DNA from: Paramecium tetraurelia
Lineage: Eukaryota; Ciliophora; Oligohymenophorea; Peniculida; Parameciidae
Direction of reading: 5' to 3'
DNA: 64,000 nucleotides
Assembly: GCF_000165425.1 (NCBI RefSeq)
Contig: NW_001798960.1
Coordinates: forward strand, 124,001-188,000
In this document: positions 1-26,900 of the stretch, in pieces
Position numbering within the stretch: position 1 is the first letter of the stretch
Layout: each line of letters opens with the position of its first letter
Translations under genes and position numbers: made by a program
Notes under the pieces: generated by a model
What the model was told of the DNA's origin: nothing
Seen by the model: only the letters and a program-made list of their open reading frames with translations
Database searches by the model: none

Positions 1-1
1 G

Positions 2-659
2 AAAATTTAGATACTAATTAGGTAAGATTTGAGGTATAAACTGTTAATAGAAAAAAGAAATAATTATATTCCTAAATTGCCAAAGGAATTGCATGAATAT
101 ACTCATTTTACTGGAGATTAAAACGTTTTTGGAGATGAGACTGCAACCCATGTTAGATTGGTTGGAGATGTCCGAACAGTATTTTTGGAAAATAGTAAAT
201 TCTTTAAGCATTGCGGTAAATAGACAAGCTGATTCTTAGATCCAAATGAAAAGAATAATAAGCTGATTTAATACAATTCTTCACATACTGTATACTTATT
301 AGTAAAATAAAATGGAGTTTGGGGATTTCCAAACATCAATATTGAAGAAAAAGAAACTTTTTAAGAAACACAAACAAAATTATTCGAAAAAATGACACAA
401 AATTCTTGGCAAGTATTATTACCATCTCATTTAGGTATATTATTTCAACAGAGATCCAAGATTAGTGACCGTCAATCCTAATTCTGATGAAAATTCAAAA
501 ATTAAAGGAGTCAAAACAATCTATTTTTAAGCAAAGCATTTATAAGGGAAAGTCAAGATTTTCGGATATGATGATTGGGCCTGGGCTTCCAGGTTAGAAA
601 TGAATAAATACCTAACAGAAAATGCATATAATTAGGTTATTCATGCTTTAGATTTATGA
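2..659 (+). CDS. MRPL46: Mitochondrial ribosomal protein L46 (mL46), 5' end outside window
   Basis: Component of the large subunit of the mitochondrial ribosome, with a NUDIX-like fold. The frame is open from base 2, so the start codon lies upstream of the window; about 200 residues are visible. Two introns are removed: about 24 nt after FFKHC, and an unusually short one of about 19 nt after WQVLLPSHL. Family landmarks are the VYLLVKQNGVWGFPN segment and the C-terminal block GVKTIYFQAKHLQGKVKIFG followed by DDWAWASRLEMNKYL, which matches the VKxxFFKA...DHVWVTKDEL region of MRPL46. It ends with TGA at 657-659. Recognition rests on motif memory, not alignment. Confidence 0.75.
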
Positions 660-11083: not shown

Positions 11084-12620
11084 ATTAATTACCAATTAAA
11101 CAAGAATATCCCCAATAAAGGCTACTTGGAAAAGGATCATATGGGTAGGTGCGTTTAGTGAGAAGAAGATTGTAAAGGTTAATTATATCTTAAGATTTTA
11201 GCTCTCTTAAGGCCGAAAAGGTAATAAAATTAGATGGGAAAAATGAAAATCAAATCCAAAAGAAGTTAATATTCTTAAATCTCTAATCTCATACAAATAT
11301 AATATAATTTAGAGAAGCTTACAAAACTTAAAAAGGAAATGTGCATATTGTAATGGAATATGCAGGCGGTAGTGTTTATATCAATTCTAGATGGTGATTT
11401 AGAAAAAAAAATCAAAGATGCTAAAGGCAAATATTTCCATGAAAGTAAAATATTACATTGGTTTTATTAAATATGTTCGGCAATTAACCATATACATAAT
11501 AAAAATATAATTCATAGAGATATTAAAGCAGAAAACATTTTCTTAACAAAAAAGGTGATATTAAAGTAGGAGATTTCGGAATATCAAGAATTTTGGAAGA
11601 ACCATTTGAAAAAGTGCAATCTTAGATTGGGACAACTATAATTTAAAGTCCTCAAATTATTAACAAGGAACCTTATACAACTATGACTGACATTTGGTCT
11701 TTAGGAGTTTTACTGTATCGATTATGTGCTTTAAAGTACCCATTTGAAGGAGATTAATAATATTAAGTTTTATAATCAATTGCTAAATGTAGTTATCAAC
11801 CAATTCCTAACAAATATTCTGATAGTATGAAATAACTTATAGAAAGTATGTTGTAAATAGATGAAACAAAGAGACTTACTGCATAATAAATATTAGGTAA
11901 AGATCATGTTTACTTCTAGATTAAATTAAAAATCTACCTAATTAAAATTTAGGTTTTCCATCGATAAAACCTAAAATCTCACATGCTCCTCAACTAAGAC
12001 TAATACCGCCTCTTCAATCAAATTAATAAGTTATAAAAAATTCCAACAATAATAATTGCAATTAAAATAAATTACAATAACAATAAAAATAATAGCTAAT
12101 TTAACAATAAGTATAAAATCCTTTTAGGAAAAAGAATTAAAAAATATAATTAGCACCTCTCCCACCATAAGGAGGAGCTTATTTAACTTCTTAGTAGAAA
12201 AAGGACGTAATGCAAATTCCACAAACAAACGACAAAGAAATTTAGTAAAAGATTTCTTCATATAAAGATTAAGCTACTTAACATACGAGAAAAATAAGAA
12301 AAATATAAAATAAAATTTAGAGAAATCCAAAAGTTATAACAGGGCCACCATAAGCTTAATAGCCTCCAATAAGAACTTAAAATTAATTGTCTCGGAGGCT
12401 TCTTTTACAAGTTAAGAAAGGATAGGACATCTTTAAAAAATAATACAAAGGCATTGATGATTCAGAAATGTAATATCAGTATCATTTTGAATTATCACTT
12501 CAAAACCAGATATTGTAGAAAAAATAGTAGGAAGAAACTTTCTAAATTTAAGAGAAAATCAAAAAAATTTTACTCAAAAAATAAGAATAAAGCACAAATA
12601 GACGCCTTATTGAAAATTGA
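11080..12620 (+). CDS. NEK-like serine/threonine protein kinase with an apparent frameshift
   Basis: Kinase domain in about the first 270 residues: glycine loop [14 protein letters not shown] with the ATP lysine, NIIQFREAY, catalytic loop [14 protein letters not shown] (the HRDIKxxNIFL form is typical of NIMA-related kinases), [10 protein letters not shown], and [12 protein letters not shown]. The tail is Gln/Lys-rich, ending [10 protein letters not shown]. Introns of 24, 22 and 23 nt are removed. Just after IFLT the frame must gain one base: the A run at 11548-11553 has six A where seven would keep [15 protein letters not shown] in frame. This is either an assembly error or a real break. NEKs act in cell cycle and cilia in ciliates. 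Confidence 0.75.
11548..11553 (+). other. Single-base frameshift in the NEK-like kinase
   Basis: Reading upstream gives the catalytic loop; reading downstream one base out gives [10 protein letters not shown]. Both halves are strongly conserved kinase sequence, and no intron signal lies between them. A homopolymer A run sits exactly at the switch. Confidence 0.65.
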
Positions 12621-12765
12621 AATTATAATACGATAATGGCATTTAATACAATTGTAATTTTATTATCTATTATAATTTCTTGGATTTTCATATAATATTT
12701 TTTATCATCACATCATTATCTTTGATTTGAAGATAGGATTTATAGAAATAAATTTATATAAAACT

Positions 12766-13212
12766 ATGCAAAACAATAGTTTAGAGTAATCATTCGCTAA
12801 TTACGTTAATAAGTTAAATAGCTATTCTGTTCTAAAAATTAATTAGGATTCACAATACAAATTTCGAACATCAAATTTACCAAAATTAATAGTTCCATCT
12901 CCTTTTGAATCAAGTGAAATGCTGAATTATTTAGAAAGGGCTAAGTTCCCTAAAAAATCTGATCTTAATAAAAGTGCATATATTGACTTGAAATAAGAAG
13001 ACACTAGAAGTTTTAATTAATTACCAAATGATCTATACTAATAATTGGAGCCAAAAACTGTTAAACTATACAGAAGTGTACAAAGGTTGAATTTTAGAAA
13101 ATTTTAATTAAAAATACCAAAAAGTTAACAGCAGTTGATGAGAAGCAGACAAAAATAATTTGATTAGCTATTGATTAGGCAATAAAGAACAATAAAAACT
13201 GAATTTGAATGA
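12766..13212 (+). CDS. Small basic protein, unknown
   Basis: 148 residues, a single exon in the ciliate code, from MQNNSLEQSFANYVNKLNSY to KTEFE-TGA. Ser/Asn-rich first half (NLPKLIVPSPFESSEMLNYL), strongly basic second half rich in Arg, Gln and Lys (VQRLNFRKFQLKIPKSQQQL). No signal peptide or membrane segment. Not recognised. Composition suggests a nucleic-acid- or microtubule-binding protein, but that is only inference. Confidence 0.55.
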
Positions 13213-14289: not shown

Positions 14290-15774
14290 TAATTGATTAT
14301 GAGATATTTATGAAATATAAATCAACCTTAGATAAATCGTTTTTATAAATATTGAGCAGATTCATAAACAATAGAAAATAGAACTAATTATTGATAATGT
14401 TGTGAAGAAATTATATATTAATATTACTAGCAATTAAAATATAATTATTGCAATTCTGATAAATTATTTTTAATTTTTGAATTAATATATCTACAATTAG
14501 AAATATAAAGGGTACTAAATATACGAAAAAAGAGCTTAAAATTTCATCAGGATAGAATCCAAAGTTGAACATAGATATTATGAAGCCAATTGCATTTTTG
14601 ATAGATTTCAGATTCAGTTTGAAGCACTTATCAAATCCAATTCCCACAAAGCAAGTATTCAATCATTACTCATCCAATTGAGTGTGAATCCAAAAAACTC
14701 AAATTTGAACTGATATTATTTTACAATTTATGCTTTGACATAATTTAAAATTGAAGACCATAATAATCACTAATAAATCAATTTTATGAAATGCATCAAA
14801 CAAAGTGAAATACCTCTTGGGGATATCTAGAATGAATACTTAACCCTCTAATCAAGTACATCATTACTGCATCATATTGAAATTCATAAATACGTTTTGA
14901 TCCAAAGGAGTGAAATAAAAGAATAAATCAATACTAGATTAACAATTTAACATAATTTGGTCTATTATTTTTAATATTGTCATGATACCCAAGCAAATTA
15001 GAGTAATAAAACCTTCAAATAATTACATTTGCTATTCAATAAGTTAAGGTAGTCTATATTATATATATATATATATATAATTTAATTAAATCATTGAGGT
15101 TTTGATTTATGAACGTTGGCAGAATAACTTTGTAGCTATTGTTAACGATATTACTACATTCTCAAATCTCTCATTAAGCCACTGTTAGCATTCTAATCTA
15201 TAGGGTTCCCTCTATTAGTAAGCAAGATCTAACAGATTTTCAGCTTCAAGTATAGGTTAAGGATAATTATCAATTAGTTATTCTAAAACTATTAAATATA
15301 AATTACTTGATAATATCATATGACAGATAGAATATGCTAATTATTATTCACATAGACTCTCTAAATCAATTTCAATTTATGTGCAATTGATAATAAATTC
15401 TATCCAATAGGACTGTTACTTTTATTAAGGAATTATCCATACTTTTAACGAAGAATATCGCCATTTTGTATGGAAATGAATCATATTTATATAAAAGTCT
15501 TAGCATAAATTTTTATAATTATGGTTAATATTACATAAGATTTATGGATTCATAATAATTTTTCTTAGTAATCCTCCTCACTTGATTAAATTCTTATCAA
15601 TATTAATGGATCTTTCTAAAATATTCAACTCTTATTGTTCGATTAGAAAAATGTTTATTTAAGCTTTTAGGATTTTCTGAATTTCCTCTTTAGTATCCTT
15701 TGTGAATTTCGATTTAACAAATAGATTACTTATTTAATATGTTATGTTAATAATTTAGTATTAAATAATATATT
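14290..15774. other. Unresolved 1.5 kb with competing antisense reading frames
   Basis: Both strands give protein-like frames. Plus: 14786 onward (MKCIKQSEIPLGDIQNEYL, about 90 codons) and a frame at 15112 with a signal-peptide-like start (MNVGRITLQLLLTILLHSQ), joined by a possible 30-nt intron (15380-15409) to TGA at 15583. Minus: 15372-15720 (SKFTKDTKEEIQKILKAQ..., then NYYESINLMQYQPQLQKF to TGA at 15372), a fragment near 14900 (YEFQYDAVMMYLIRGLSIHS), and a hydrophobic frame at 14410-14660. These overlap and cannot all be real. The minus 15372-15720 reading has the most natural charge mix, but lacks a clear ATG. Confidence 0.4.
15054..15080. repeat. (AT)n microsatellite
   Basis: About twelve consecutive AT/TA dinucleotides. 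It lies inside the unresolved region; its length may vary between alleles or assemblies and could disturb any reading frame crossing it. Confidence 0.85.
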
Positions 15775-18365
15775 ATGATTTATGTACCTATCTTGAATAG
15801 ACACTTGGCCATGTTAGGTCTTTCAGTGATTGATTTAGCATTCGGGGTGGTGAATAACTAAATTTAAACAATCATTCTCAATGCCGCCCTTCTCGGAATC
15901 ATTTTATGTAAGTTTGTTCTAACATATTCAAGTCATTATACTTTATAAATACAAATACTAGAAGAAACCTAAATTGTTAGAAATTTCAGTTATGCTTTAT
16001 TACTGCGCTTATTAACTTTCATTAAAAGGGGTTCCTTACATTTGGTTTAGCCTGCTTTCTATAGCAGCAAATAAACATATTGTCTAATTCATAATTTTAT
16101 TGCTAATAATCGTCGTAACATCTGCTTAGATTGATCCCATTTGTCCAATATGTCACTTATAGTTGTTATTAGAATAAATATTCCTGATGGGATTGCTCAT
16201 ATTAAATCGATTTAACTTTTTAACTTAGAAGAAGAAGGCTTAAAAGCAACTATTAAAGTAGATATTTCGAAAAATCAGATATTGTTTATACGATGAAAAT
16301 CTGATGGATGTTGATACCAATAAGTAGAGCGCACCAGAAATATCTGTTCTATCTGGAGTTTCCTTATATTCCAATCGACTAGATAACCAATAATTACAGT
16401 TTAAATCATAAAAGGATTTGAAAATTAAGTGTTACTCTATTAGTAATGGTAATGAGCAAGAATCTCGTATTTTTGGTTCAAAGCCATTGGTATTTGATAG
16501 TATTAGTGGTTTTCTTGAAATATTTTAGAAGGAATTCAAAGAGATGCAAAATAAAATTATTTTGGCATCTGAACTAGATAATCCAACAGGATAAAAATCA
16601 AAGAGGAGAATTTATGTTTAATAGTTTTGTAATTTAGGTAAAAAATACAATTTAATTGCAATGTTACAATAAGATGATAACTTAATGAACAAATAGAACA
16701 AAAATATCAATAAATTCAAATTAAGTTTATCCAAAATATTTACTCATAAGTTGAAAACTCCCTTGAACACAACTCTTGGGTATTTGTAAACTGCCATTTC
16801 AGAAAATCTTAATGTAGATGAACAATTAAAAAGTTAATTTTTAAAACCTGCTTTTATTAATTCAAAAATTTAATTTTATTAAGTGCAAGATATTTTAGAG
16901 TACATTAATTAAGAGGATTTATTGTAATTTCGAATAGTGAAGGTGAATCTGAATAAAACCCTAGGTCTTATTTATGATTTAATTGAGTTGTAGTGTAGAG
17001 CAAAATAAATAAAAATAGAATTTTTGATAAATGAGAAGCCATTTAACACAAGGGAGAAGTATTATTATTAGTTAATTTTAGGCCTATTTATATTTAAACA
17101 GATTAATAGAGATTGGAAAGAATTCTCTTCAACCTATTGAATAAGTCTTACAGACACACTCAAATCAACGGTAGAATTTGTCTTCATATTCTAATTGATT
17201 CTGAGTTGAATCAGGTATAGTTTAAGATTAATGACAATGTTTTGGGATTCAAATAAGAATAAGTCGATTAAATCAACTCTTTTGCTTAACAATAGAATAA
17301 ATCAATCTCTTAATTTAGGAATTCCATAGTCAAGAAATCTAAGTTCAAATTTAGTTTGACATTACAAATCACTAATAAATTAATCTTTTTCTTAAGTGAT
17401 ATGCAATGTTCACTTCAAGTCAGAAATACGATTGAAGAAGGTGCAAGTTATTATTTCTTTATCAGTATGAATTGCCAACAAGGAAGTTTCCAATAGACAA
17501 CGGATGTACAAGCCCTTAATTTGAGTTCTTAACATAAAAGTACAATCACTTTAAAGCAACCCTTAAATAGCTATCCTTTTCTTGGTTACACCAGAAGCCA
17601 AAATCAAATGAGGTAATTTCTATGATTATATCTATCTAGCAAAGAGAGAATCTACGACGGTTTAGATGTGGATGAAGAACCCTGCGCTAATAAACCGTTT
17701 TGTTTGAGTACCTAAAATTTCTCCTATTCTCCCTAATAAACAGTTTTGAGAACTCAATAGGCTTAATAGAGCATAATTCAATATCAGAAAAACATCTATT
17801 AAAGGGATTTCAATGAGAAATCACTAACAATGTCTTTAGCATTTGAAAGATCATTGAATATGAAAAGAATTGGAGATTCAGTAGACATCAGACAAGATTT
17901 CAATTAGACAATTATGTTAGTGGATGATGAACCCTTTAATCATGATACATTAAAACTTATGTTGAAAAGTCTTGGTTTCAAAAACTTCATCAGTGGATAC
18001 AATGGTCAATAATGTATAGAATTAGTATAAAAACATCATACTTCGATTAAAATTATATTTATGGATTTAGACATGCCCATTATGGGAGGAATCAGAGTAA
18101 AATTACATATAAATCATAGGCAACTAATATTTTGATTGAACTGATGCAATAGAATGAAATTGACTATATTCCCATATTGGCATGTACTGCTCATGATGAT
18201 AAAAATACTCAAGAAGAGTGCCTTGAAGCAGGAATGCTATGTGTCATTGCAAAGCCAGTATTTGTAAGGAGTTTGCAAGAGGCTTTTGTGAGAGTGAATG
18301 AAATCAAGCAAAGAACTTTAAATGTCTTTGCTGGATCTAAAGTCATATCATCAAGTATAAAATGA
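15775..18365 (+). CDS. Hybrid histidine kinase 1 (membrane; ATP site degenerate; intact receiver)
   Basis: 830 residues after introns of 25, 23, 27 and 23 nt; spliced length divisible by three. Several membrane segments occupy residues about 1-150 (LNAALLGIILFIILYKYK, IVQFIILLLIIVVTSAQ). The H box is FTHKLKTPLNTTLGYL with the phosphoacceptor His. The N box (RLERILFNLLNKSYRHT) is recognisable. The G1 motif DxGxG is replaced by NDNVLGF and the G2 glycines are gone (FSLTLQITNKLIFFLSD). The C-terminal receiver is complete: VDDEPFNHD, MDLDMPIMGG with the phosphoacceptor Asp, ACTAHDD with Thr, and AKPVF with Lys. First of three tandem paralogues; 72 nt before the next. Expected role: membrane phosphorelay, possibly without autokinase activity (inference). 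Confidence 0.85.
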
Positions 18366-18437
18366 TTTATCATTATGATTCTCTTCTTATATCTGTCTAT
18401 TATAAATTGAATATTACATATTATTATTAATTATTAG

Positions 18438-20851
18438 ATGACCCACAATACAGCATAGTTTTGTATTATGTTTAGTGCTGTAGTTCTCTTGGATTTAATC
18501 TATAGTATATAGGTCAATGAAATCCCGATGGTGGTGTGCAATTCATTGATTTTATTGTTTTCCATAAGTAAATTCGCCCATTTAAATATCAAGTTCATTA
18601 GTTCGTCAAATTCAAGATCAATAAATGTGAATACCTTCTGATAATCGTCTTGTTCTTTCACAATGCCGTATAAATATACTATTATGGAAGGAAATCATTG
18701 TGGTTTTTGATTTATCTTTTACAAATATTCAAATTGGAATAACATACTCAAATACTTAAATATTGTAAATTTACTTAATTAGCTGTCAATATTATTATAT
18801 ATTCTATTCAATATGATGGTCAAATCAATTTTGCCTATTTTCAGTAACTCAATTATTGTATTTTCATCTTAATTTATCAAATTTACAATTAAAACGAACA
18901 GGTGTCAGAAATCGACATTGCCCAAAATTAAATTATTGAAGATATCAAGTAATTAATAATTTTTAAACTATTTGATCAGAAATGTAATGATCTCTCCAAA
19001 AATGCCTCTAACTTCAACTATAATTAATTGCAGACTACTCCAAACTAAAACAATGATAACCAAAACTTTCAAATCAAAGCTTATTAAGATAAAGAGTTTG
19101 ATAGTCCTGCTTAGAATCAATGTGGATGGGAACCTAGCATTGTATTTAATGATTATCAGACATTTATAGAACATATCAAAAGTTAAGATAATTAAGATTC
19201 TTAATATCATTATGTGGCTATATAAACTGATTTTATCAAGAATATCAAAACAAAATATAATGTTTTATACAAAAAATTCGGAAAAAATGAGTTAATTACA
19301 ATTGCATTAATTAGAATTGACAGTTTCCACCAAAGATTAATGATTTGGAAGTTCAATAAATTCAAAAAATACTTCTATGACATCTTTGCTCATAAATTAA
19401 AAACTCCCCTAAACGCTTCCTTAGGTTTCCTATCATCTGCCTACAACTATACTGAAATGGATAATGCTATCAAACAGAATTATATTAAACCTGCATATAT
19501 CAACTCTAAATTGTAATATTTTTAAATATCAGATCTTCTGGAATTTCTTAATCCATAAAGTGATTAAACCAGAATCTAATATTATAAAATTAACATGAAA
19601 TCATTTCTATTTACACTTAATGAATTGATAGAATCTTAATGTTAAAACAAAAAGATACTATTCTAAGTTTTTGTGGAGAATGTTCCATTAAATAATATCG
19701 ATAAGTATAATCTTAGAAATAACCATTTTATAGATTCTACATTTTATCAGATTTACTCAAGTTAGAAAGAATTCTCTACAATTTGCTTAACTTAACTTAC
19801 AGATACACTCCATAAAATGGCCAAATTACACTTAATCTATGCATAGATAAGAAAAATTCAGAGGTCTTATTTATCATTAATAGTAACGAATTCTTGTTTA
19901 ATAATGAAGAACTAGAAAATATAAATGAATGCATTAGATGCTAAGTGGAATTTCAATATAAAAAAAAGTCAATAGCACTTAAGAAAGAAATTAAATTGTC
20001 CTTAGAAATCACTAATCATTTAATTAATATACTAAATGATTAAGAATACCATCTTGAGATTTCTTAATCAGATGGTGGGACTGAATTCAAATTCAAATTA
20101 ATCATTAAGGAAAATAAACTAACTGAAGGATCTTTGGAATAGTTCACTATTGGTTTTATGTTGAAATAGAAAAGTACTAAAACTGTAAATTATGGAACCA
20201 ACGAATAATCATGTAATAGTTCCAATTTGATTAAACCAAAATCATTATCACTATTTTCATCCTCAAAAGTTGTGCATGAACCATAAGCAAACACTCCTAT
20301 TACTACTCCAATAAATTAACCGAAGACGTTCAAGACCCCAGCCTTGAAAAGGTTACGATCATCCTTTGCAGATAGAGTTTTGATAGACTTTGATCAGAAA
20401 ATTTTAATTGTTGATGACGAACCATTCAATCATGACATTTTGATTTTGATGATGAAGACTATGGGTTATACTTAATTCCTAAAAGCATATAATGGACAAC
20501 AAGCAATCGATATAGTCAAAGAAAAGAAAGGACAAATTTCCATAATAATTATGGATTTAGACATGCCTATAATGGGGGGAATCGAAGTATGTTTGCATAA
20601 TAATTATTAAGGCTACAAGAATTCTGGTAGAAATGATGTTGGATTAAAAATTAGACTACATACCCATAATTGGTTGCACTGCTCATGATGACAAGGAAAC
20701 CATAGATAAGTGCCTTTAGATTGGGATGCTTTATGTTGTGGTGAAACCTGTATTTGTAAAAACACTAAGGGAAGCATTCTAACAAATAACTAACATGGGG
20801 GATGGGAGAAGAAGATCTTTGTTATGTTTCACTTCTTAATTACAAATTTGA
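18438..20851 (+). CDS. Hybrid histidine kinase 2 (membrane; ATP site degenerate; intact receiver)
   Basis: 777 residues after introns of 26, 29 and 25 nt. N-terminal membrane segments (MFSAVVLLDLIYSI; EYLLIIVLFFHNAV; FLIYLLQIF), then a linker, then the H box FAHKLKTPLNASLGFL. The N box is LERILYNLLNLTYRYT. In place of G1 it reads INSNEFLF, with no DxGxG, and G2 is SLEITNHLINILND without glycines. The C-terminal receiver is canonical: VDDEPFNHD, MDLDMPIMGG, GCTAHDD, VKPVF. Its nearest relatives are its neighbours, and it starts 72 nt after the first and ends 31 nt before the third. Likely accepts or removes phosphate in partnership with another kinase (inference). Confidence 0.85.
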
Positions 20852-20882
20852 TTTAATTATTATTAATATTAACAATACTAAT

Positions 20883-23255
20883 ATGTTTAATGAAATAGAT
20901 CAAAATGTTAGGATCATCTTTTTACTACAATTAATATCAATTCCATTTTCGATTATCGAACAGAAATATATAGTGTTAATATTGAATTTAATAGAAGTTT
21001 CATTGATTATAGGTATACACTTTATATTTTATGTTAAGTACATTTAATCACTATAAAATTAGACTGTTATATTTTTCATTCAAAGGTGATTATATTGCTA
21101 TTTCTATTAGCAAGGTCATTATCAATGTTTGGTTCAACTGATTTTTGGATTGTAATTTATATATACAACCTAAAAAAAGACATCGTAATACTTAATTAAT
21201 TTGCAGTTATTTCAATGTTAATAGTTTGCATCAACTAATTTAATAGTGTTCACAATAAATCATATTAGTAAACTATTATAGAATTAGTAGTCTTATATTT
21301 GTTTGATGCCTATTTGCAGTACAACAATTATAAAAGCAATGAGAAACCAAACAAAAATCAATTTTATAGGAAATTTAACATTGCTCATTAAGAAATCCTG
21401 AATTCTTGTCATGATCAAAAAACAACGTAATCTAAACAGCATAATCAAAGAAAGAATGTGTTAATTGTCAATCAATGTCAAATTAATGAATCTCGCTATT
21501 AAATTTACTAGGCATAAGACTCAATTCCGAGTTTAAAAGATATATTTTATCCCGAATGGAAAAAGACTTACTATTGCTCTTCAGAATAAGAATTACTAAA
21601 TGTATATGATAAAGAAAATTCGAATTTATTTTATATTCTATATATACCATCAGAGAAGAGCAAGGAAATTTACAGAGTGCAAATTACAAAAACTAAGGCT
21701 TAGGATTATATATTATACTATACTAAACTAGATAGTCTCTTGTACTTCAAAATGAAAGGATCAAAAAGAAAATTCAGATAAAATTTATCTTAAATATTCT
21801 CCCACAAACTCAAAACTCCATTAAACTAAGCTTTGGCTAAGATTACATCAATGCTTACTGATAAGAATGTGCTTCCATATCAAAAAGTCATTCTTTCATA
21901 AATCTATATCCAATAGAAATGTCAATTGTATGGCATATTGGACTTTTTAGACTATGTTAATTCAGATTCCATGACTTTCTAACCTTCTCGTATTACCTTA
22001 ATGTAGATTATCTAAAATGTTAAAGATCTAATTAGAGAGTAATGCAAAGCCAAATCAATCAAATTACGTATACTAATTGAAAGCAAACAATTAAAAGATT
22101 ATAAAGGGTATCATCTTTAATAATATATTGTAGAATGATTGTACTATTTACTGATTCATTGAAATTGGAAAGAATTCTTTACAATTTGTTAAATAATGCT
22201 TATCGACATTCTAATCAGAATGGAACAATTCATTTAACTGTGGAATTGGTTTAAGGAACGTTGAATTTTGCAATAAAAGATTCTGGAATAGGAATGACGG
22301 TTGAAATGATGGCGGATTATAATTTATAATTTTAATGTCTTCAAAATCCTTCGAAATCAATCAAACGCTCTTGGAACCACAAATTAGGAACTACTTTATT
22401 AGTGACCAACAAATTGGTTCATTTATTAAATGGAAATAAGGGTCAGATCTAAATTCTTAAATAGAATGAGTCTGAGTTTAAGTTCTCCATCTTACAAGAA
22501 TTGAATATAAACAAAGGAGTGTCAGACATAGGGTTTGGCAGTTTGAGTTCAGATAGATCAGAAATGAATGTATTAATTAATTAGTAAGATCACATGGATG
22601 AAATTTAAGAAGAGGATGATTATATAGTAAATGAACCAAAGAGTTAGGAAATAAAAATAGAATAGATCAAACATGCAAGGAATTATAAATAGATCACTCT
22701 ACTACCTCAATCTCAAGGTCAAAGTAAACATTCATAATTGTTCAATAAGAGATCTTCATCTATTTTTGATGTGAATTCCTTTTTGAGATAATTTAGTTTT
22801 AAGGACGGTGGGATAGAGTCCAACCAAGAATTAATTATAGATAAAGATCAATATATTATGATTGTTGATGACGAACCATTTAATCATGATGCTCTACTAA
22901 TGATGTTGATGAGATTAGGATATGGTAATTTCATGCATGCTTACGATGGAAGCGATTGCATAACTAAGACAAAGGAGAACCACTCTAAAATTAAATTCAT
23001 TTTAATGGATTTGGATATGCCCATTTTAAATGGATTTAAGTAATTAATAAATATTAATTCAGAGCCACATCCTCACTTATTGAACTAATGAAAACTAACT
23101 AAATTAAAATGATTCCCATTATAGCATGCACTGCTCATGATGATTACTTAACTGAAACACAATGCAAATCTGTCGGTATGATAGACATCATCATCAAACC
23201 AGTCTTTTTAAAGCAACTATAAGTTGTACTGAAAAATATCCCTAAAATCCTATGA
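20883..23255 (+). CDS. Hybrid histidine kinase 3 (membrane; canonical ATP site and receiver)
   Basis: 764 residues after introns of 29, 26 and 23 nt. N-terminal hydrophobic segments (IIFLLQLISIPFSII; IVLILNLIEVSLIIGI). H box FSHKLKTPLNQALAKI. The ATPase domain is complete: N box LERILYNLLNNAYRHS, G1 IKDSGIGM, G2 LGTTLLVTNKLVHLLNGNKG. The receiver has VDDEPFNHD, MDLDMPILNG, ACTAHDD, and IKPVF. It is the only member of the tandem trio that looks able to bind ATP and autophosphorylate. The receiver intron sits at the same place as in the other two, which supports local duplication. Ciliate two-component proteins are little studied; signal unknown. Confidence 0.9.
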
Positions 23256-23961: not shown

Positions 23962-26900
23962 TCATTTAGATACATGGATTTGTGATTTTGATCTCATACT
24001 TCTGTGTTAACTTCTCATAGAATAAAGATCCTCCAATTATTAAAAAAAACTTTATGAATAATTCTAGATGACTCCTGCTAAATCCTATATAAATTAGGCC
24101 AACATAACTTAGTTTTGATAAACTATTCTTCCCTCCTAAGCTTGAATCTTAGAAAGAACAAAAATAATTGTCTAACTTACATGCTTGTGGGTATCATCTA
24201 CCTTGTATATGTATTAAATTGAAGAATCTTGATTTAAATCATCTTGAAGATCATCCACTTCTGCGAGTCTTTATCTTACTTAAGAACCCATAGTCAAATA
24301 GTTTAGACTACAACTATTTTTTTTATCGTGAGTTCTTGGAGTAGTGGTATTGGTTGGTTAAAATTTTGAATTTTTAATTTAATACAATACGATAGTACTT
24401 CTGACATCAATTTTATTTGAATCTATCTCAAATTATTTAGCCATCTTGTTCATACTGGAATGAAATTATTTAATGTGAAATTTAATTTCTTAATTTTTTT
24501 GATCCTTCATAAATTTAAGATTTTCACATATTCTCATTTGACCTGTCTCAAACAACAATTTTTCATATGTCCAAGGACCATTACCTATTTTAGTGAAAAC
24601 TATCTAATTATCTTCAATACTAATTAAATACCACCTACCATCAATAGAGTGAATTAATTTAAAGAATGAAGTATCTGGAAGCAATTAGTAAGTAAAGTAA
24701 TTTTCAATTAAATATAAAATCTAGAAAAAATATTTAAGATTTGGTTTTGGAAATTTTAAGATTCCCATTAAAGAAAATAATATCTTACTCTCTACTTTAA
24801 ATTTATTTTAAAATTTTAACTCTTTGATCAACTCGAATTTTTGTCCAAACTCGTGCTTTAAGAATTCTTCTTCTTATTTTTTTATATATACTTCACTAGT
24901 GTCTCTCAATACTGCATTCTATATCAATAGATCATGATTGGAGATATTAATCTGTTTTCTCTTAAACATTTCATCCTTTTTGATTTCATTTCTTATATGG
25001 ATTATATATTCTGATGTTACATTATAAATATTATGAGATTCTCTTATGAATTTCTATTCTAAAAATTCTTGATAACCAATAAAATAATCACAATAAATCT
25101 TTTGAATTTCAAACATAGATTCCTCTATTATTTATATAAAATCTCCTTATGGTTTTATCTTCTTTGTCACTTTATTACTATTAATACCAACATTTAAAAT
25201 CTTATTATATGCTTTGATTTCTATTTGAGGTTCAATTTCTATTGGAATCTCAATTAACTCGTCTTAATTGTGTTTCAATTTAGAACTTCTGCGTTTAAAT
25301 TGTAACACATCTGGGTTGTCATCATTTAAAATTGCTGTTTTTTTCTATAATTGTAAAGCATTACTCAGTTCTGATCCACTTCTCAGATCATTATCTGTTC
25401 CAAAACTACTACCTAATATTGCTTCATCTTAATAATTCAATTCTACTGCTGCTCTCTCTTCTGGTTTGTATTGTTCCAATTCTTATTCAAATAGAGTCTT
25501 TGATACCACTGTGAATACTTCCCAAACTAACCCTCCTATTAAAGCTAATAAAAAAATAGACAAGAAAACAAAAGAACCCACAAAAATCATCGGAACTGCT
25601 AAAGTGTTAGTATCATATGATAATTCAAAAACTATTTAACCCCAAGAGGCAGCTGTAAATATTTATAGCATCAATAAATATGATCCACCCAATGAATTAA
25701 AATCTGCATATTTGCATTATCCCCATTAAAATCTAAACTCATTTGGATCACATGAATTATTCTGATAAGGATTCTGTTCATCATCTTATAGACCTCCATA
25801 TATATATATTCCAACACAAGCATATGTGAAAAACACTATTTAGACTGGCAAAATCAATCTAAGGATAAGTGGTATACAAATAATGATTTTATATAGTAAA
25901 TTCTTCACATGAGCAAATATTTCTAGGCCTTATAGCAAGTATCCAACTAATTTGATTGACCTAAATGCTCTAAATATTCGAAATGCTTTTTAAATTTTTG
26001 CTATTCTTAATATTCTATTTGCTTTAATTGATTAAACAATATTTCCAGTTACAAAATTAAATAAAACATAATCAAATAGAATTTATAGAAATATTATACT
26101 TACATCAAACACATTCCTAATTTTAGTTATTTATAATTATACCATCCATCACTAAAGAAATCCACAATTCCAATTCCTATCATTTTAACCAAACATTCAA
26201 AGATATATATCCCTAAAAAAACTGTGTCAATAATGTCAAAAACACCTAAAATTTCAAGATCATCAATAAAAAATGCTGTTATAATGAGAGCACAGTTTAA
26301 TATTGTTATTGCTAGCATGAATAATATGAACCCCTATTTTCAAATAGATATATTACCCAAGATTCGATAAACTTTTTCAATCCGTATTTATTGCAAAATC
26401 TTTGGAATTATTCCCAACATTTTAATGATTTCATTCGAGGCAGTGATATCCTTTTGCTATTCTATAACACTGCTAACAATTAATTAAATTCATCAAACTA
26501 TATCTTATCACTATTTGAGACAATACTCTTACTTAAAATCTTTATCAATTTCTTAAAATATGATTTGTATTTGATCATCTGTTAACTGACCTCGGTAAAA
26601 GGTTCTAAGGAATTTCTTGAATTGACTTTCAGTTAAGTAACCCACATCATTTGAATCAAGTGAAATGAAGCTGGCCATCATAGCTGATTTTTATTTGATA
26701 ATATCTTAAATGGCTATTTACATTCTATGTTTTCGAAATCCTTCATACACAATAGCCAAAGGGATGGGTTAAAAGAGAAATAAAAATAGAATTATATATA
26801 TCACAAAAAAGAATACATAATAAGTTCCTTACATTAACACAGGTATCATTATATCTGGATAGAAATCAAGAGTTGCAGTCATAAATAACATATTAAATAA

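Follow-up and report, generated by a model that had tools for sequence, protein, structure and literature searches.

Three tandem hybrid histidine kinase genes

Here we describe three hybrid histidine kinase genes, HK1, HK2 and HK3, that lie head-to-tail on the plus strand of a 64,000-nucleotide stretch of Paramecium tetraurelia DNA (hereafter the window; G000:C7:124001-188000). All coordinates refer to the window unless a contig is named, and the genome searched comprises 69 Mb in 231 contigs. Gene models were built under genetic code 6, in which TGA is the sole stop, with introns of 23-29 nucleotides (nt). All three genes are open and intron-bearing, with spacings of 72 bases between HK1 and HK2 and 31 bases between HK2 and HK3. 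The tandem arrangement agrees with a sequence-only reading of the same DNA, which had proposed three such kinases in a row.

HK1 (15775..18365; exons 15775-15907, 15933-17058, 17082-17612, 17640-18096 and 18120-18365) encodes a putative hybrid pseudo-histidine kinase of 830 amino acids, and its model was unchanged across three intron penalties. HK2 (18438..20851; exons 18438-18567, 18594-19704, 19734-20586 and 20612-20851) encodes a second putative hybrid pseudo-histidine kinase, of 777 amino acids. HK3 (20883..23255; exons 20883-21037, 21063-21085, 21111-22107, 22134-23039 and 23063-23255) encodes a hybrid histidine kinase of 757 amino acids that keeps the N box and G1; its first two introns were picked manually, and the automatic model begins at 21125 and yields 693 amino acids.

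The domain order is the same in all three: hydrophobic N-terminal segments (three in HK1, two in HK2 and two in HK3, from a simple hydropathy window), DHp, an ATPase-like domain and a C-terminal receiver. The receivers, each with an intron inside, are placed approximately at 17908..18300 (HK1; Pfam Response_reg 66.8 bits), 20398..20790 (HK2; 72.1 bits) and 22855..23235 (HK3; 60.7 bits). Alignment shows their motifs DDE, MDLDMP, CTAH and KPV to be complete in each gene, together with an H box (FTHKLKTPLN in HK1, FAHKLKTPLN in HK2, FSHKLKTPLN in HK3), just as had been read from the letters. The phospho-acceptor His codons lie at 16745..16747 (HK1), 19391..19393 (HK2) and 21803..21805 (HK3), each within HKLKTPLN, with Lys at the following position (H+1) and Thr at H+4.

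HK1 and HK2 have lost the ATP-site motifs

The N box reads NLLNKSYRHT in HK1, NLLNLTYRYT in HK2 and NLLNNAYRHS in HK3. At the position of the N-box Asn, HK1 has Lys (NLLNKSY, 17143..17145), a residue common to both other HK1 copies (contigs C83 and C70), and HK2 has Leu (NLLNLTY, 19792..19794); HK3 keeps the Asn (NLLNNAY, 22195..22197). G1 reads NDNVLGF, INSNEFLF and KDSGIGM, respectively, so that in place of DxGxG stand DNVLG at 17233..17247 in HK1 (DNVQG at C83 and C70) and SNEFL at 19882..19896 in HK2, whereas DSGIG is kept at 22279..22293 in HK3. The sequence-only reading had seen the two G1 losses and not the N-box substitutions. It had also assigned G2 to the third gene only. The G2 Gly residues are indeed absent from HK1 and HK2 in the alignment, but G2 of HK3 is atypical, with GTTL at the aligned position versus GLTL, GLSL or GISL in relatives with the ATP motifs, and the 'GNKG' cited in its support lies after G2. 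The form at G2 is GVGLGL in 8 of 8 other histidine kinases read from the same genome. Of the three ATP-site motifs expected of a canonical kinase, HK1 and HK2 have none, and HK3 has only the N box and G1 in standard form.

A profile comparison with HATPase_c, proposed as a check along with the original observation, places HK1 (25.7 bits) and HK2 (14.2 bits) under the Pfam cut-off of 26.4 and HK3 (43.7 bits) above it. With Pfam HisKA (cut-off 26.9), HK1 and HK2 score 13.5 and 13.6 bits, and HK3 has no HisKA match among those listed. Scanning the three plus-strand frames of each locus for DxGxG gave matches in the HK3 locus only, at 22279 and, by chance, at 22525; no plus-strand frame of the HK1 or HK2 locus contains the pattern.

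It had been allowed that splicing or a corrected sequence might restore the motifs. Sequencing error is rejected, since open copies elsewhere in the genome show identical losses, which speaks against a splicing explanation too. Alternative splicing is in any case an unlikely rescue and was set aside, because in each gene a single uninterrupted exon holds all three motif positions. Their motifs make it very probable that HK1 and HK2 are pseudo-ATPases in which the phospho-acceptor His and the receiver are retained, and loss of the ATP-using step in both is strongly suggested.

A family with Lys after the phospho-acceptor His

Protein searches of the genome, in which only the best candidates were scored, yielded at least 17 modelled family members, a lower bound. 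HK1 survives at C7 (the window), C83 and C70; HK2 at C7, C56 and C83; and HK3 at C7 only. The remainder are tandem pairs (a and b) at C185 and C187 and single genes at C159, C164, C178, C172, C155 and C200. Each tandem pair consists of a first gene that bears the ATP motifs and a second that lacks them. Loss of the N-box Asn always goes with loss of DxGxG: both are absent in 9 of 17 members (the three HK1 copies, the three HK2 copies, the second genes of C185 and C187, and C172) and both present in the other 8. Slightly fewer than half of the members (8/17) have lost the G2 Gly. In the HK1 group, the Asp and last Gly of G1 are retained (DNVxG, 3/3). Among the matches listed, the closest relatives of HK1, HK2 and HK3 are paralogues in the same genome.

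Receiver motifs (DD, D, T, K) are kept in all 17 members. The phospho-acceptor His is present in 16, among them HK1, HK2 and HK3 and every one of the 8 genes in the HK1, HK2 and C185b/C187b groups. The remaining member is C159 (L020; C159:37148-39449, minus strand), in which N box and G1 are intact and Asn replaces the His, a mirror image of HK1 and HK2. Eight predicted introns of 24-30 bases in HK1_C70, HK1_C83, HK2_C56, HK2_C83, a_C185 and a_C187 are a multiple of three in length and contain no TGA, and their retention would leave the reading frame open.

Every member, HK3 included, has Lys rather than Glu or Asp at H+1 and Thr at H+4 (17/17 each). HK1, HK2 and HK3 accordingly lack the acid of the canonical HisKA pattern (H-E/D-x-x-T/N) and have its Thr. 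Canonical HisKA hybrid kinases, many of them in the same genome, share the DHp-HATPase_c-receiver order and the Thr at H+4, whereas this family is set apart by its Lys at H+1 and by the loss of N box and G1 in more than half of its members (9/17). Among 120 Pfam HisKA matches examined in the genome (of 124; three or four of the four left out are partial), H+1 is Glu in 97 (81 counted by script and 16 by eye), Asp in 20 (117 acidic) and Lys in 2. These two are C155 and C200, both members of the HK1/HK2/HK3 family. The DNA pattern HKxxT[PS] has 26 matches versus 21 in a reversed control, and 16 of the 26 belong to the family recovered by protein search. Two further features emerged from the HisKA matches: L156 (C173:448610-448801) reads FELRTPL, with Phe where the phospho-acceptor His would stand, the sole such case in the 120 examined, and L162, L173, L179, L181, L182 and L184 form a subgroup with HELGTxLN, in which Gly stands at H+3 and no Pro follows the Thr.

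In the bacterial HisKA kinases CrdS, HK853, HK4262 and HK1190, the acid at H+1 is reported to be needed for kinase and not for phosphatase activity, and Thr or Asn at H+4 for phosphatase activity (PMC3510030). By this rule from four bacterial kinases, the combination of Lys at H+1 with Thr at H+4 would make all members of the clade, and HK3 with them, poor kinases that are capable of phosphatase activity.

The altered ATPase domain is under purifying selection

Pairwise codon models over the ATPase domain gave omega values of 0.081 (HK1 C83/C70), 0.044 (HK2 C7/C56) and 0.144 (C185b/C187b) for pairs without the ATP motifs, and omega = 1 was strongly rejected in each (2 delta lnL 59.9, 69.6 and 38.3, respectively). 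For pairs bearing the motifs, omega was 0.061 (C185a/C187a) and 0.014 (C164/C178), with omega = 1 again strongly rejected in both. The dS values of the domain are about 1-1.5 for HK1 C83/C70, C185b/C187b and C185a/C187a, and borderline for HK2 C7/C56 (3.65) and C164/C178 (5.05); older pairs, at saturated dS (about 4 to 66), were left out. The domain lacking the ATP motifs is under purifying selection in three recent pairs, that is, it is maintained. The ratio of ATPase to receiver distance spans 1.53-2.21 in three pairs without the motifs and 1.20-2.37 in three pairs with them, with wide, overlapping intervals.

Repeated loss and nested duplication

The C185b and C187b genes group with HK2 (support 100/99). 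C172 stands apart from the other genes lacking the ATP motifs and groups with C164 and C178 (100/100). A single origin of all the losses is rejected on this placement, which requires at least two. The grouping of HK1 with HK2 has a support of 45/21 only, and the alternative that joins HK1 to the first genes of C185 and C187 is unrejected (p-AU 0.43); gene order suggests that HK1 corresponds to the first gene of these pairs. The terminal branch of HK3 (1.69) is by far the longest, the median being 0.13.

The only other HK3 copy detected is a relic after HK2 at C56 (L042 and L189), with broken frames and the ATPase segment missing. Other relics are a 40-base HK1 match at C56 and a remnant of HK2 at C70. 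No trace of HK3 was found in the 2,111 bases after HK2 at C83 or in the 2,672 bases after HK1 at C70. Downstream of the trio, a gene resembling an Ion_trans channel (23962-26148, minus strand) serves as a marker for the duplicated segments: close copies adjoin HK genes at C83 (72%) and C70 (71%), and distant copies (50-54%) lie on C159, C164 and C218, the first two of which also hold family members. A ferredoxin-like stretch upstream of HK1 also recurs at C56. Nested segmental or whole-genome duplications fit as the source of the family loci.

Proposed function of HK1 and HK2

In Spo0B, ChpT and PhyT, a histidine kinase-like DHp with a phospho-His is combined with an ATPase-like domain that does not use ATP (PMC3433190, PMC5898713); ChpT is reported to have an ATPase-like fold and no autophosphorylation, and PhyT a degenerated ATPase domain (same sources). 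HK1 and HK2 appear to belong to the same category, with the DHp His kept and a predicted ATPase-like domain devoid of ATP motifs. The likeness is one of motif state, with no claim of common descent, and phosphotransfer by HK1 and HK2 is a prediction. We propose, with a probability of roughly 45%, that HK1 and HK2 are conserved hybrid pseudo-kinases that work as phosphotransferases or phosphatases and not as autokinases. The ATPase-like domain would no longer turn over ATP and would be retained as a structural part of the dimer. A receiver or an ATP-competent paralogue would donate phosphate to the His of HK1 or HK2, and phosphate would be passed to, or removed from, receiver Asp residues, in the manner of the degenerate-kinase phosphotransferases Spo0B, ChpT and PhyT or of HisKA-type phosphatases. 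With no HPt domain detected in the genome, proteins like HK1 and HK2 could supply the missing His step. Our best reading places the phosphotransferase or phosphatase role first and that of a heterodimer partner second, and we infer the direction of phosphate flow.

Several points weigh against this proposal. The HPt search, made with one Pfam profile in six frames, returned no match at E <= 1, and its control was positive in 8 of 14 prokaryote genomes, with no eukaryotic control. HK1 and HK2 differ from Spo0B and ChpT in having a receiver and hydrophobic N-terminal segments of their own, and their phosphotransfer role is predicted from motifs. Two copies lacking the ATP motifs, HK1_C83 and HK2_C83, score above the HATPase_c cut-off over their ATPase segments (35.1 and 30.9 bits, respectively), and profile scores do not cleanly split members with the ATP motifs from those without. 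AlphaFold models of the ATPase exons, built from three-sequence alignments, have a mean predicted local distance difference test (pLDDT) score of 48.5 for HK1 and 48.2 for HK2; helices and strands seem to follow one another as in HATPase domains, but at a pLDDT of only 48 we draw nothing from this and regard the fold as tentative. There is some relaxation of the ATPase domain in HK2, where the ratio of ATPase to DHp distance is 3.17 (interval 1.70-6.76), the ATPase evolving faster. Finally, Lys at H+1 is no proof of lost kinase activity: HWE/HisKA_2 kinases carry HRxxN and are nevertheless reported to phosphorylate regulators in vitro (PMC5898713). Some members of the HK1/HK2/HK3 family may be kinases, since 8 of 17 keep N box and G1.

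A possible, if doubtful, alternative is that HK1 and HK2 form heterodimers and are trans-phosphorylated on their His by a relative bearing the ATP motifs (HK3, the first genes of C185 and C187, or C159). The sequence-only reading had imagined such a module locally, with HK3 as the active kinase, an interpretation that finds partial support. The tandem pairs at C185 and C187, each retaining one gene of either kind, fit a mixed set of this sort, and C159 offers the complementary loss, Asn for His beside an intact N box and G1. Heterodimers also have a bacterial precedent in RetS, which binds GacS and blocks its autophosphorylation (PMC4866733). RetS, GacS and LadS of Pseudomonas are hybrid kinases that interact as heterodimers or through a receiver-to-HPt relay (PMC4866733); here, in contrast, no HPt was detected and the ATP motifs of HK1 and HK2 are lost. 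HK3 itself fits the active role poorly: it has Lys at H+1, as do the other supposed active partners, its G2 departs from the usual form, it evolves fast and its C56 copy is a relic. The idea of a local trio suffers further from the persistence of HK1 and HK2 at C83, and of HK1 at C70, with no HK3 detected next to them. Going further, in a ciliate with no HPt detected, an expanded clade of hybrid pseudo-kinases with HKxKT might have taken over phosphotransfer, the kinase being split among its members (His without ATP site in HK1 and HK2, the reverse in C159) and the working units being formed only as mixed dimers or receiver-His-receiver relays; we regard this scenario as rather improbable.

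We give little credence to a third role, in which the pseudo-kinase core would bind a phosphorylated receiver and alter its own state with no phosphotransfer. DivL, a Caulobacter pseudo-histidine kinase whose core likewise lacks kinase activity (as is predicted here for HK1 and HK2), is the precedent: it binds ATP weakly, has neither kinase nor phosphatase activity and senses DivK~P (PMC4211667). DivL, however, has Tyr in place of the His, whereas in HK1 and HK2 the His is present and the ATP motifs are missing; retention of the His in 8 of 8 members of the HK1, HK2 and C185b/C187b groups points to its being used. Somewhat less credible still is that HK1 and HK2 are cryptic kinases that bind ATP by non-standard means and autophosphorylate. 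Purifying selection on the ATPase domain, DNVxG in every HK1 copy and the two HK1/HK2 copies above the Pfam cut-off would suit such kinases, but all three ATP-site features (Asn of the N box, DxGxG of G1, Gly of G2) have gone together. Lowest of all we place decay, under which an unused ATPase part would have lost its motifs in genes on their way out. The relics of HK3, HK2 and HK1 in duplicated segments and the raised ATPase/DHp ratio of HK2 are what decay would leave; against this, frames have stayed open at several loci after old duplications, and decay is largely refuted by omega values far below 1 over the domain lacking the ATP motifs. Our preferred reading remains that of phosphotransferases or phosphatases.

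An 'atypical histidine kinase family' is described as greatly enlarged in ciliates (PMC3341644); phosphorelay sensor kinases are reported to be expanded in hypotrichs (PMC10946202), and histidine kinases to rise in symbiont-bearing P. bursaria (PMC4029085). Neither the main text of a survey of histidine kinase, HPt and response regulator domains (PMC4558063) nor that of a review of archaeal and eukaryotic histidine kinases (PMC6944256) names Paramecium, Tetrahymena or any ciliate. Our literature search, with most subscription journals outside its reach, found no account of hybrid kinases lacking ATP motifs in ciliates, in keeping with the earlier remark that such sets are little described there.

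The family described here belongs to a eukaryotic lineage that has retained hybrid kinases devoid of ATP motifs, with His and receiver intact, across several rounds of duplication, within a clade that entirely lacks the acidic residue thought necessary for HisKA autokinase activity. Plant ethylene receptors are pseudo-histidine kinases, and together with a few bacterial cases they make up most of what is otherwise known of such proteins. The genes raise the questions of what role a histidine kinase plays once ATP is unusable and of how phosphate moves in a eukaryote whose genome holds many hybrid kinases and yielded no HPt match.

Neighbouring genes upstream of HK1

An open reading frame (ORF) at 11443-13209 (plus strand) encodes half a protein kinase domain, the C-terminal one (positions 131-260 of the Pkinase profile, 83.3 bits), and belongs to a large family; with 74 of 1,074 candidates scored, it is a weak synteny marker, and the channel gene downstream is the better one. 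Between it and HK1, at about 15200-15510 (minus strand), lies a frame-broken stretch that is common to C56. Its ORF in the window has no Pfam match, and from its pattern of Cys residues we take it to resemble a [2Fe-2S] ferredoxin. An open copy is present in the C56 segment (L041 bases 1-400, minus strand), with ACEQSLACSTCH.

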